A DNA stretch of 64,000 nucleotides from Salibacteraceae bacterium (lineage in GTDB: Bacteria; Bacteroidota; Bacteroidia; Flavobacteriales_G; Salibacteraceae), in the NCBI GenBank assembly GCA_018401875.1, contig JAGYJZ010000006.1:62001-126000 (forward strand), read 5' to 3'. Every line of letters begins with the position of its first letter. Within the stretch, counting starts at the first letter, position 1. A model generated the notes under the pieces. The model searched no databases, was not told the DNA's origin, and saw only the letters and a program-made list of their open reading frames with translations. A program made the translations under genes and the position numbers. Below are positions 3,188 through 64,000 of this stretch, piece by piece.

Positions 3188-4744
3188 ATGAAAAAGAATT
3201 CTATTCTTAAAAAAGTAATTTCCCTCTTTGCGATGGGAGTGCTTACGATCAGTGGATCAATTTCGCTGGCTCAAACAAATGTTTACGATGATATCATCGC
3301 AACAAGTCCAAATCACACTTCGTTGAAAGCCGCACTAGACCAAGAAGGGTTGGACGTGGTATTGCAAGATACAAACGGAACTTTTACGGTGTTTGCTCCA
3401 ACCAACGATGCGTTCGATGACTTGGCAACAGCGCTAGGAACAAACATTGCTGGATTATTGGCATTACCTAATTTAAGTGACATTCTTACCTATCATGTTT
3501 TGGGTGTAACTGCTCCGTCATCATCATTATCAAACGGTGATATCGTAACTCCAGTTTTCGCTGGTAACACGGTGAAATTGACGGTTACGGGTGGCGGAGA
3601 CGTATTCGCCAATCAAGCGTTGGTTGAAACCCCAGACTTGACTGCTGACAATGGTGTTGTTCATTCTACAGCCGCTGTTTTGTTGCCAAACGAAACAGTG
3701 GTAGACGTAGCTCTTGACAATGGTTTCTCCACCCTTGCCAATGCAGTGATTGCAGCAGAATTGCTTCCCGCTTTAACTGATCCTTTCGCTACTTTAACTG
3801 TATTTGCTCCAACGAATGAGGCGTTTGACGATTTGATCGAAGAGTTGGGAATAGATTTAACATTCCTTCTTGGTCTTCCAAATTTAGCTGATGTGTTAAC
3901 GTATCATGTTTTAGGAACTGAAGTTGATGCCGCTGCTATTTCAAATGGTGATGTGGTTTCTCCATTGAGCGTGACGAATACATTGAAATTAACAAAAACG
4001 TCCATGGGAGATGTTTACGTAAATCAAGCTCAAGTAACGTCAGCTGATATAGCCACTGATAATGGTATTGTTCACGTGCTTGATGCAGTGTTGTACCCAA
4101 ACGAAACTGTGGTTGATGTTGCTTTGGATAACGGATTTAGTTCTTTAACAACGGCAGTCATTACTGCTGAGTTATTGCCTGCTTTAACTGATCCTTTCGC
4201 TGAGCTTACGGTGTTCGCTCCAACAAACGAAGCGTTTGATGATTTGGCTGCAGCGCTTTCAACAGATATCGCTGGCTTATTGGCATTGGAGAATCTTTCT
4301 GACATTCTTCTGTACCACGTAGTTTCAGGAATAGTATTGTCAACAGAGTTAACTGCTGGACCAGTAGCAACGCTTAACGGAGCTTCTGTAAATGTTGATT
4401 TGACGAACGGTGTTATGATCAATGATGCTACGGTTACTCTGGCAGATGTTACTTCCGATAATGGAGTGGTTCATGTTATCGATAAAGTGTTGGTTCCTGC
4501 TCCACTTGGAACTTCAGAAATCACTTCTTCTTTGATCAGTGTGTTCCCAAATCCAGCGGTCGATCAATTGATGGTTAGCAATGCCATGGACGCAACATTC
4601 CAAATTATAGATTTGAAAGGTTCAGTCGTAAAATCAGGAGTTGCGAACAACATCATTGATTTATCGTCTCTCACTCCTGGTGTGTACATGTTAAATCTTG
4701 TTTCAGAATTAGGAATGAGCACTCACCGAATTGTAAAACAATAA
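3188..4744 (+). CDS. Secreted protein with three fasciclin (FAS1) domains and T9SS C-terminal sorting domain
   Basis: Signal peptide, repeated TVFAPTNxAFDDL and YHVLG blocks, C-terminal VFPNPAVDQLMV...LTPGVYMLNLVSE. Confidence 0.93.
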   Translation: MKKNSILKKVISLFAMGVLTISGSISLAQTNVYDDIIATSPNHTSLKAALDQEGLDVVLQDTNGTFTVFAPTNDAFDDLATALGTNIAGLLALPNLSDILTYHVLGVTAPSSSLSNGDIVTPVFAGNTVKLTVTGGGDVFANQALVETPDLTADNGVVHSTAAVLLPNETVVDVALDNGFSTLANAVIAAELLPALTDPFATLTVFAPTNEAFDDLIEELGIDLTFLLGLPNLADVLTYHVLGTEVDAAAISNGDVVSPLSVTNTLKLTKTSMGDVYVNQAQVTSADIATDNGIVHVLDAVLYPNETVVDVALDNGFSSLTTAVITAELLPALTDPFAELTVFAPTNEAFDDLAAALSTDIAGLLALENLSDILLYHVVSGIVLSTELTAGPVATLNGASVNVDLTNGVMINDATVTLADVTSDNGVVHVIDKVLVPAPLGTSEITSSLISVFPNPAVDQLMVSNAMDATFQIIDLKGSVVKSGVANNIIDLSSLTPGVYMLNLVSELGMSTHRIVKQ

Positions 4745-61473: not shown

Positions 61474-61575
61474 CGGTTCGAGTTTCAAGGCTTAGGAGAT
61501 TTATAATTTATAATTCATGATTTATAATTGGACTTCGAGCATACCACAATGTTGAATCAAATCGCGAACTCCAAA

Positions 61576-61602
61576 ACCACGAACCACGAACCACGAACCA
61601 AC
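61576..61602. repeat. Short tandem repeat, about 8-bp unit (CCACGAA[C])
   Basis: ccacgaaccacgaaccacgaaccaacc. Confidence 0.7.
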
Positions 61603-61730
61603 CAACCCAAGCAAACATAAGCCAAAGCATTTTTAGAGCCAAGCCTTTTTTTGATGGTGGCAATAACTGGCGCAACTATAAAACTTTTAAGATGGCGCAT
61701 GTCAAAATGGGGTGTGCCACTGCGCGCGAG
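61597..61730. repeat. Structured interspersed repeat, copy 1
   Basis: Shares aaccaaccca..aacataagccaaagcatttttag.gccaag.ctttttt..gggcaataactggcgcaactataaa...tggcgca...aaatgggg..gccact with copy 2. Confidence 0.85.
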
Positions 61731-61897
61731 GAAAAAAATCGAACAAAATTTCAACGCGTGATGCGCCACTCGCCTAAAGGTTCGCGGCTAAAAAACGTGC
61801 GATATTCGAAGGCCGCTTCGGTCAAAAGTAAAACTAATCGTTGAGAAAATACTATCCAACGGAGCCGTGACACTTAAGCATGTTTCTTCAGTCGCTG

Positions 61898-62209
61898 TTA
61901 GCCAAAGTGCTTTTTTATTTCTTTTTCTATCGAGTCAGGGTCTTGCCGATTATCGATTAATGTAACAATGAAAATTGAGTCTTCTGCTATTTTGTAAAGA
62001 ATGGATGTCTGTTTGGTAATAATAAGTTTTCTCAATTCAGGGCGCACTTCACTTTTTGGAAATCCTTCTGGGTTGGATTCTAAAGCTTTAAGTCGTTCAG
62101 TAAACTTTTGAATGAACTTTTCTTTTGTCTTTAGCGACCATTTTTCTTCTAAGAAGTCCAAAAGCAAATTAGTCTTATAGGCAGCAAGGGTAGAAAGACG
62201 AATATTCAT
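61898..62209 (-). CDS. RelE/ParE-family toxin
   Basis: FLEEKWSLKTKEKFIQKFTERLKALESNPEGFPKSEVRPELRKLIITKQTSILYKIAEDSIFIVTLIDNRQDP. Confidence 0.9.
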   Translation of the reverse strand: MNIRLSTLAAYKTNLLLDFLEEKWSLKTKEKFIQKFTERLKALESNPEGFPKSEVRPELRKLIITKQTSILYKIAEDSIFIVTLIDNRQDPDSIEKEIKKHFG

Positions 62210-62442
62210 GAAACTTTTTTAAGAAAGTCTTCAAGAGCAATAGTTTCCCCGCGTTCGATTTGTGCTAGTCCAATTTCTACTTCTCTGCGCTGAGCTTCAG
62301 AAAGTTCAAGCCAAAAATCTTTACCCTGAACTTTTAAAGTCGAGTAGAGTTTATTAAGAAGTTCTTCGCTCTCTGTATGAAGAATTTGCTTTACAAGTTC
62401 GAGTTTTAAAGCTTGAATATCCATTTTAAGTCGTTTGTCCAA
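62206..62442 (-). CDS. Addiction-module antitoxin component
   Basis: 78-aa protein just upstream of, and overlapping by 4 nt, the RelE/ParE toxin; SEAQRREVEIGLAQIERGETIALEDFLKKVS. Confidence 0.85.
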   Translation of the reverse strand: MDKRLKMDIQALKLELVKQILHTESEELLNKLYSTLKVQGKDFWLELSEAQRREVEIGLAQIERGETIALEDFLKKVS

Positions 62443-62636
62443 ATTTAGTGAATTTCATTTCAGTTAAGCTTAATGTTGTTCCTCTTTTTGCATTTTGCCA
62501 AACATTTCGCTACATTCAACTTAGCACTTATTAATTCAGTTTTCATTGCGTTAATTGTTTGCTCAGCAATAGGTTGATTCGTTTTTTAGTGGTTTGTTTT
62601 TGCATGAAATGTTTATCAATCATCCCCCTCACCATC

Positions 62637-62760
62637 CAACCAACCCAAACATAAGCCAAAGCATTTTTAGCGCCAAGGCTTTTTCTTGAAGGGGGCAATA
62701 ACTGGCGCAACTATAAATTTCTGAAAGTGGCGCAGTGCCGAAATGGGGCGCGCCACTTTG
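62637..62760. repeat. Structured interspersed repeat, copy 2
   Basis: Direct-orientation copy of 61597-61730; contains a perfect 10-bp stem AAAGTGGCGC (62724-62733)/GCGCCACTTT (62750-62759). Confidence 0.85.
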
Positions 62761-62807: not shown

Positions 62808-62825
62808 TCCCGGTAGCTATCGGGA
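62808..62825. repeat. Palindromic element tCCCGGTAGCTATCGGGa
   Basis: CCCGGTAG/CTATCGGG self-complementary with one G-T wobble. Confidence 0.6.
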
Positions 62826-62921
62826 GGCCATAATTGAAGTTGGTTTTGGGTGAAAAGATGGGTTGCTCAACTTGTCCGCCTCAGGCGTGAAAAATTACCG
62901 CTGTTGGGTTGCGTTATTTTT

Positions 62922-63380
62922 TCACATTCTTACTTCTACTAATCCTTGTTCAATAACTTCAATAGAATTCGTATCTCCCAAACGTATGATGATTTTAGTT
63001 GTGTCTCCGTTCAAGATTAAGTCTGTAGTAGTTTCATTTCTATCTAATCCCTTCATGAAAATAGCTCCTGTTGCGACATTTGGAGTGTTGTTGCAAATGC
63101 TTGGTGAATTGATGTTTGTGAAGGTTATCCAGGCTCTTGATCCAGCGACTAATGCGTCAGCCTCTATTTTGAAGTTTGAACAATCTAAGATTTCTTCACT
63201 TTCAACGATTAATGCCCATTCTTTTCTTGCTCCGATTGCGGGAGTTTGATAGTCTAGGCCTGTGACAATTACACTATTCAACTCTGGGTTCATGTTTGGG
63301 CCATCGTTGTCATTATTACAACTTGAAATGTTTATGCTACATCCTATGCCAAGGATTGTCAGTAAAATATGTGATTTCAT
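62922..63380 (-). CDS. Hypothetical lipoprotein
   Basis: MKSHILLTILGIGCSINISSCNNDNDG (two lipobox-like Cys); beta-rich remainder. Confidence 0.65.
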   Translation of the reverse strand: MKSHILLTILGIGCSINISSCNNDNDGPNMNPELNSVIVTGLDYQTPAIGARKEWALIVESEEILDCSNFKIEADALVAGSRAWITFTNINSPSICNNTPNVATGAIFMKGLDRNETTTDLILNGDTTKIIIRLGDTNSIEVIEQGLVEVRM

Positions 63381-63421
63381 AGTCTTTTTTAATGTGCTAC
63401 TACGGTCAGCTATATGCCATA

Positions 63422-63721
63422 TTAGGCAGCGGTTTTTTCCAAACTTTTAATTTGATCGAACTCATTTTGCTTATTCAATCTTTCTTCTTCGAGATCAAAG
63501 TCATCTTGCAAACCCAACCAAAATTTGGCTGAGTTTCCGAAGTACTTACTCAAACGGATAGCAGTGTCAGCGGTAATCCTTCTTTTTTTCTTTAGGATTT
63601 CGCTGATCCTGGTTTGGGGAATACCAATGTCTTTGGAGAGTTTATAAGCAGAGATCTCCAAAGGAATAAGAAACTCTTCTTTGAGAATTTCACCAGGGTG
63701 TATGTTATCTAATCGTGCCAT
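63422..63721 (-). CDS. higA: HigA-family antitoxin (XRE-like HTH)
   Basis: IHPGEILKEEFLIPLEISAYKLSKDIGIPQTRISEILKKKRRITADTAIRLSKYFGNSAKFWLGLQDDFDLE. Confidence 0.95.
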   Translation of the reverse strand: MARLDNIHPGEILKEEFLIPLEISAYKLSKDIGIPQTRISEILKKKRRITADTAIRLSKYFGNSAKFWLGLQDDFDLEEERLNKQNEFDQIKSLEKTAA

Positions 63722-63723
63722 AA

Positions 63724-64000
63724 TTAGTGATAGTCTAAGATTTCAACTTCGAGCGCGTTACCATTGTTCCATTGAAAAATGATTCTCCATTGACGATTGA
63801 TTCTGATAGAGTAGAAGTCGTTCAATTTTCCCGACAATTTTTCAAGCCGGTTAGAAGGAGGAATTCTCAGGTCATCAATATCGATGGAGTTGTTAATCAT
63901 CCTGAGTTTTCGTCTGCCAATCTCTTGGACCTCGAGCGGGAGTTTTTTTACTCTATCACCATTCCAAACTTTTTCCGTTTCCTTCGATCCAAAAGATTTG
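63724..64000 (-). CDS. higB: HigB/RelE-type toxin, N-terminus beyond right edge
   Basis: Minus-strand frame KSFGSKETEKVWNGDRVKKLPLEVQEIGRRKLRMINNSIDIDDLRIPPSNRLEKLSGKLNDFYSIRINRQWRIIFQWNNGNALEVEILDYH*; toxin-first order before higA. Confidence 0.9.
   Translation of the reverse strand, partial: KSFGSKETEKVWNGDRVKKLPLEVQEIGRRKLRMINNSIDIDDLRIPPSNRLEKLSGKLNDFYSIRINRQWRIIFQWNNGNALEVEILDYH

Follow-up and report, generated by a model that had tools for sequence, protein, structure and literature searches.

A probable decayed integron-type cassette cluster, with promoter-like repeats beside its toxin-antitoxin modules, in a Salibacteraceae bacterium

Small genes on the minus strand lie near the end of the window, the 64,000-nucleotide stretch of a Salibacteraceae genome (contig C33) that was analysed here. 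Among them are a ParE-family toxin gene (61898-62209, minus strand; family match to PF05016) and the gene of its cognate antitoxin (62206-62424, minus strand). The antitoxin start is placed at the ATG at 62424 because of a comparison with a homologue in another genome (L048), and the TTG at 62442 proposed by the ORF caller is probably not the start codon. They are accompanied by a small lipoprotein-like ORF that belongs to no family (62922-63380, minus strand), a HigA antitoxin gene (63422-63721, minus strand; TIGR02607, above cut-off) and a HigB toxin gene (63724-64000 in the window, minus strand; PF05015), the start codon of which falls just outside, at window-equivalent 64003. A third toxin-antitoxin (TA) module, consisting of a Gp49-type toxin and an HTH antitoxin, is located on contig C36. 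These three modules, parDE, higBA and Gp49-type/HTH, all lie near copies of one repeat and are mutually unrelated. A palindrome, GTTATCTCAAAAGATAAC (L004 1373-1390), is found immediately before the toxin gene of the third module and is likely an operator.

Two direct repeats in the same orientation lie on either side of the parDE module, at 61597-61721 and 62631-62757. They share 84% identity over ~127 nt (BLAST E ~1e-31, far beyond chance), in agreement with the preliminary description of a pair of ~130 bp. That description also had them bracketing the module exactly; gaps of ~170 nt to the toxin gene and ~200 nt to the antitoxin gene are found instead. A BLAST search of the genome (2.62 Mb, 36 contigs, 82% complete) added two copies to this pair and gave exactly four in total, c1 to c4, at two loci; the genome-wide statements made here rest on sequence searches of the genome contigs together with individually inspected stretches. 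Copy c1 (61597-61721, minus strand by promoter direction) scores 118 bits against the repeat profile, and its promoter motif faces only the dciA 3' end, with no gene left there. Copy c2 (62631-62757, minus strand; 111 bits) lies 5' of parDE. Copy c3 (C33:126211-126268, window-equivalent 64211-64268), truncated to ~58 nt, starts 211 nt past the window end and lies 5' of higBA, and copy c4, on contig C36, is 72% identical and lies 5' of the third module.

A genome-wide repeat family had been suggested; further copies do exist, but there are just four, and in this genome only. When the four-copy profile was run over 42 genomes of the order, the copies scored 118, 111, 94 and 49 bits and the next best match 19.6, and neither BLAST nor the profile search found the repeat in the 41 other genomes. 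For the invariant 16-mer CAAACATAAGCCAAAG, the genome has exactly four matches; ~390 other genomes of the class gave three chance-level matches, the same number as for its reversed control. Searches of plasmids, phages, viral contigs and 85,000 species genomes (by pattern scan for the genomes) returned only three chance matches, all inside coding sequence. The repeats are a minor, species-restricted, promoter-like element. The possibility that they are coding sequence was considered, as minus-strand ORFs of >50 aa span all copies, and was rejected, as the frame shifts between c1 and c2 through one-base indels. The window holds another direct repeat (3743-3856 and 4154-4267; 114 nt, 73% identity, 411 nt apart), and a palindrome, CCCGGTAGCTATCGGG, present once in the window at 62808-62826, in a GC-rich stretch adjoining c2.

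The promoter-like character of the repeat resides in a core that is the same in all four copies, whereas the remainder has diverged to 72-84% identity. On the minus strand, each copy carries TTG-N20-TATGTTTG with a spacing of 20. In c1 this element spans 61612-61642 (minus strand; -7 box 61612-61619, -33 TTG 61640-61642), and in c2 it spans 62646-62676 (minus strand; -7 box 62646-62653, -33 TTG 62674-62676). The -7 box of Bacteroidota is TAnnTTTG, and a promoter of the Bacteroidota sigma factor was taken here as a -33 TTG and a -7 TAnnTTTG ~19-21 bp apart, a pattern present in all four copies. In this genome TAnnTTTG occurs at 1.92 per kb upstream of long ORFs vs 0.20 per kb within them, a 9.6-fold difference, which makes the repeat motif a plausible promoter here. 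The motif is aimed at a TA module in three of the four copies, with 229 nt from the core to the first start codon for the parDE antitoxin, 228 nt for higB and 144 nt for the third module. On the other hand, every module also has its own -7 box, located 12-34 nt upstream of the start codon; that of parDE, TAAATTTG (62440-62447, minus strand), is situated 23 nt ahead of the antitoxin ATG. The repeat would therefore be an additional promoter, and judging from this arrangement of motifs it could feed the TA operon from further upstream, although the nearer box at each module may make it unnecessary. With four copies only, selection on the promoter core is inseparable from recent common origin. Beyond the core, c1, c2 and c4 share a second block, CTGGCGCAAC, without any difference.

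The repeats had also been regarded as structured, with structure kept while sequence drifts. The stems on which this view was based are real: c2 carries a perfect 10-bp stem (62724-62759, arms 62724-62733 and 62750-62759, strand unassigned), and c1 a 7-bp version with one G-U pair. The evolutionary part of the view did not hold up. None of the ten stem pairs shows a compensatory change, three are broken in c1, and the stem is missing from c3 and c4. As DNA, the copies do not fold better than shuffled sequence (z = -0.8 for c2, +1.6 for c1), and the RNA folds are no better either. A second pairing, GCGCCA/TGGCGC, is present in c2 as described and in no other copy. Rfam gave no match at gathering score, only chance matches with E of 0.6-10. 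Both a structured RNA family and conservation of structure were therefore rejected: the former for want of compensatory pairs and of an Rfam match, the latter as the stem is confined to c1 and c2, lacks compensation and folds no better than shuffles.

These folding results bear on the origin of the repeats as well. Several copies at two loci of one genome, and none in its relatives, are what would be expected if the repeats were four insertions of a short non-autonomous mobile element, MITE- or REP-like, that came to lie near TA genes by chance or preference; the preliminary description had considered a non-autonomous element that is bounded by the repeats and carries the TA genes. We regard a mobile element as improbable, since terminal inverted repeats and target duplications were not found, and folding does not exceed that of shuffles. 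Moreover, there are only four copies, of very unequal length; all are oriented alike with respect to the TA genes beside them, three lie 5' of a TA gene group, and the homology between c2 and c3 continues past the repeat towards the gene.

A different kind of boundary was found at the 3' ends of the modules. On the minus strand, the flank 3' of parE runs from 61903 to 61772, beginning with GGCTAACAGCGACTGAAGAAACATGC and ending with GCACGTTTTTTAGCCGCGAACCTTTAGGC, and an unguided dyad search of this flank returned these two arms as its best dyad, although 23 of 60 shuffles gave dyads equally good. We interpret 61772-61903 (minus strand) as the remains of an attC-like site that closes a parDE cassette on its 3' side. 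Its right (end) arm matches, with a score of 40 (2000 shuffles reached at most 25), the attC 3' end that in another genome stands directly before a TA module homologous to parDE, and within the window no other place matches that arm. Furthermore, both arms match the attC-like site that follows a paralogue of parDE on contig C6, a match that none of 300 shuffles equalled. That paralogue (L087, C6:49000-53500) ends in an attC that looks intact; an IS transposase-like gene stands upstream of its antitoxin, and at least one more attC-like site is nearby.

The other two modules retain less. The 3' flank of the C36 module matches the first (5') half of an attC-like site from an array on contig C5 (described below), with a score of 35, where 300 shuffles gave 28 at best. 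The junction of higA and the lipoprotein gene retains only an attC 3'-end scrap, TATAGCTG-ACCGT-AGTAGC (63396-63414, minus strand), and this one is weaker, with 2-9 of 500 shuffles equally good. The mark of a cassette, an attC at the 3' end of the gene, is thus present in decayed form at parDE, as a 5' half at the third module and as a scrap at higA. Intact, recombination-competent sites (R''/L''/L'/R' with unpaired bases) were not seen at the 3' flanks of the modules, where dyads do not rise above shuffles, and a strict attC scan of the minus strand of the window gave no match. A search for an attC behind the lipoprotein gene was likewise negative, and the sequence immediately 5' of c2, c3 and c4 yielded no recognisable one. 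Neither an integrase gene nor an attI lies beside the cassettes between 61.6 and 64.3 kb; the closest gene for a tyrosine recombinase, XerC/D-like, lies 4.5 kb past the last repeat copy, and the locus is not a complete integron. Taken together, the attC-like 3' flanks lead us to view the TA modules as worn integron-type cassettes and the locus as CALIN-like. The earlier idea of a cassette was right in substance, but the parDE cassette is bounded by the decayed attC-like sequence and not by the repeats.

Direct repeats of attC-like length around TA genes are found in the superintegrons of Vibrio and in the pdif modules of Acinetobacter. The likeness of this layout raises the question of whether the repeats themselves are recombination sites (attC, attI or pdif-like) between which the TA module could be excised. 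Such a role is very improbable. No R''/R' pair or dyad exists in c1, c2 or c4, whose scores are at or below the shuffled mean; inspection by eye revealed no 11-6-11 Xer core, and the repeats show no consistent similarity to the attI region that follows the integron-type recombinase. The genuine attC-like sequence is a separate one, at 61772-61903.

The borders of the cluster speak of rearrangement. A heptamer repeat, AACCACG, forms the outer edge of c1 (61573-61598, plus strand), and the dispersed (AACCACG)n also forms the outer edge of c3 (L003 1558-1670); it has 47 matches in the genome vs 5 for its reversed control. The cluster is flanked by dciA and a holin-like gene, which are non-adjacent in every genome of the genus in which both were found, so the cluster sits at a rearrangement point and offers no simple empty site. 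At the other locus, the C36 module and c4 stand directly behind a tRNA gene with anticodon CAT (L004 548-724); homology with relatives ends at the 3' end of this tRNA gene, and different DNA follows in each relative examined. The heptamers left of c1 and right of c3, together with a gene order broken here relative to the genus, could mean that the segment was inserted, and the repeats multiplied, through unequal homologous recombination between dispersed repeats, with the cassette ancestry incidental and the repeat functionless. This explanation seems unlikely to us, although less so than the two considered above. It leaves unexplained why all copies share an identical promoter-like core against 72-84% identity elsewhere, and why three of the four stand upstream of TA modules.

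The reading that we favour, and consider probably correct, is that the stretch 61.6-64.3 kb represents an integron-type cassette cluster in decay, in which the repeats are ~125-bp promoter-bearing leaders upstream of TA cassettes, not ends of a mobile unit. On the minus strand, the order would be c3, higB-higA, the attC scrap, the lipoprotein gene, c2, antitoxin-parE, the decayed attC and c1. The copies may have arisen by duplication and recombination between cassettes, c1 could be the leader of a cassette whose gene was lost, and the repeat would act as an added promoter for the TA operon. A parDE homologue in L048 lacks the repeat, which indicates that the repeat is not intrinsic to that cassette.

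Several known systems resemble this arrangement in part. Clusters of attC without an integrase are known as CALIN (PMC8618304, PMC9024848), and TA genes are among the functions that cassettes most often carry (PMC8618304). The cluster resembles the TA cassettes of chromosomal integrons and CALIN in its 3' attC-like sites, several co-oriented cassettes, decay and variable location, and differs in that its attC sites have been destroyed in part, the TA genes are preceded by an extra promoter-bearing repeat, and the host belongs to Bacteroidota. In the IntegronFinder 2.0 survey, a single complete integron was recorded in Bacteroidetes proper, in Salinibacter (PMC9024848). Cassette-borne promoters and ORF-less promoter cassettes are known, as far as they are cited in PMC8618304 (refs 15-16); here too the promoter comes from inside a cassette array, but unlike ORF-less promoter cassettes the repeat has no attC of its own. 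The resemblance also extends to putatively mobile promoters, in that promoter-bearing intergenic segments stand 5' of unrelated genes, although here they number just four and are tied to TA cassettes. Putatively mobile promoters are near-identical intergenic segments of this kind upstream of unrelated genes in one genome. In the pdif modules of Acinetobacter plasmids, TA genes lie between short repeated sites, as they do here, but the present repeats are without the Xer 11-6-11 core.

A possible source of the cassettes was encountered on contig C5, where a 408-aa tyrosine recombinase (L105 14626-15852) is followed by an array (L106 1-3800) of small genes with clear attC-like sites between them, GCCCATAACAGCACCTAAAA ... 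TTTTAGCTGCAAACCGTTATGGGC. The recombinase scores 222 bits with NF040815, above cut-off, and 214 bits with the integron integrase model TIGR02249, below its cut-off of 265. It aligns continuously with XerA, and it has 22 residues where Vibrio IntI4 (2a3v) has 65; the R-to-H spacing is 88-90 aa in 19 measured homologues. These two measurements indicate that the IntI additional domain is missing. Homologues (L115-L133) are present in 18 of the 42 genomes of the order, and many of them have a ACAATTGTTA-like site, a candidate attI, within ~55 nt of the stop codon. A strict scan for attC-like sites (AAC, L'', L', a 3-7 nt spacer, GTTR) found 15 sense and no antisense sites in 72.8 kb downstream of recombinases across the order, and one site on each strand in 100 kb upstream. 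The combination of a XerA-like recombinase without the IntI domain and an attC-like array is found in at least seven genomes. In many draft genomes the contig stops 0.1-6 kb downstream of the recombinase, as repetitive arrays would predict.

A downstream attC-like array, the functional hallmark of an integron, is thus found in C5 and its relatives. Their system is integron-like in anatomy and departs from IntI in one defining respect, and is therefore a variant and not a member; the additional domain has been regarded as needed for integron recombination (Messier and Roy 2001, as cited in PMC9668308). A literature search, with subscription papers and preprints outside its coverage, found no description of this recombinase-array arrangement. 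Because attC-like sequences are shared, the local TA cassettes would derive from a system of the C5 type. The TA modules themselves are unremarkable as cassette cargo, sitting in an array that has decayed; what stands out is the system of recombinase and array. As a more tentative extension, which we consider possible and somewhat less secure than the reading of the cluster itself, the TA cassettes may belong to an undescribed Bacteroidota integron class. Its XerA-like recombinase (with an N-terminal extension of ~110 aa, without the IntI additional domain, and co-directional with the cassettes) would operate on an extended array of attC-like sites, using an attI-like site right after its stop codon, and c1 to c4 would be promoter leaders added 5' of stabilising TA cassettes.

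The repeats illustrate that cassette leaders can look like the ends of a mobile element, and the modules beside them that TA genes survive the decay of cassette clusters in the genome of an uncultured member of the Bacteroidota. If the recombinase is active, integrons would not need the IntI domain, and Bacteroidota integrons would have been missed by searches that demand it.
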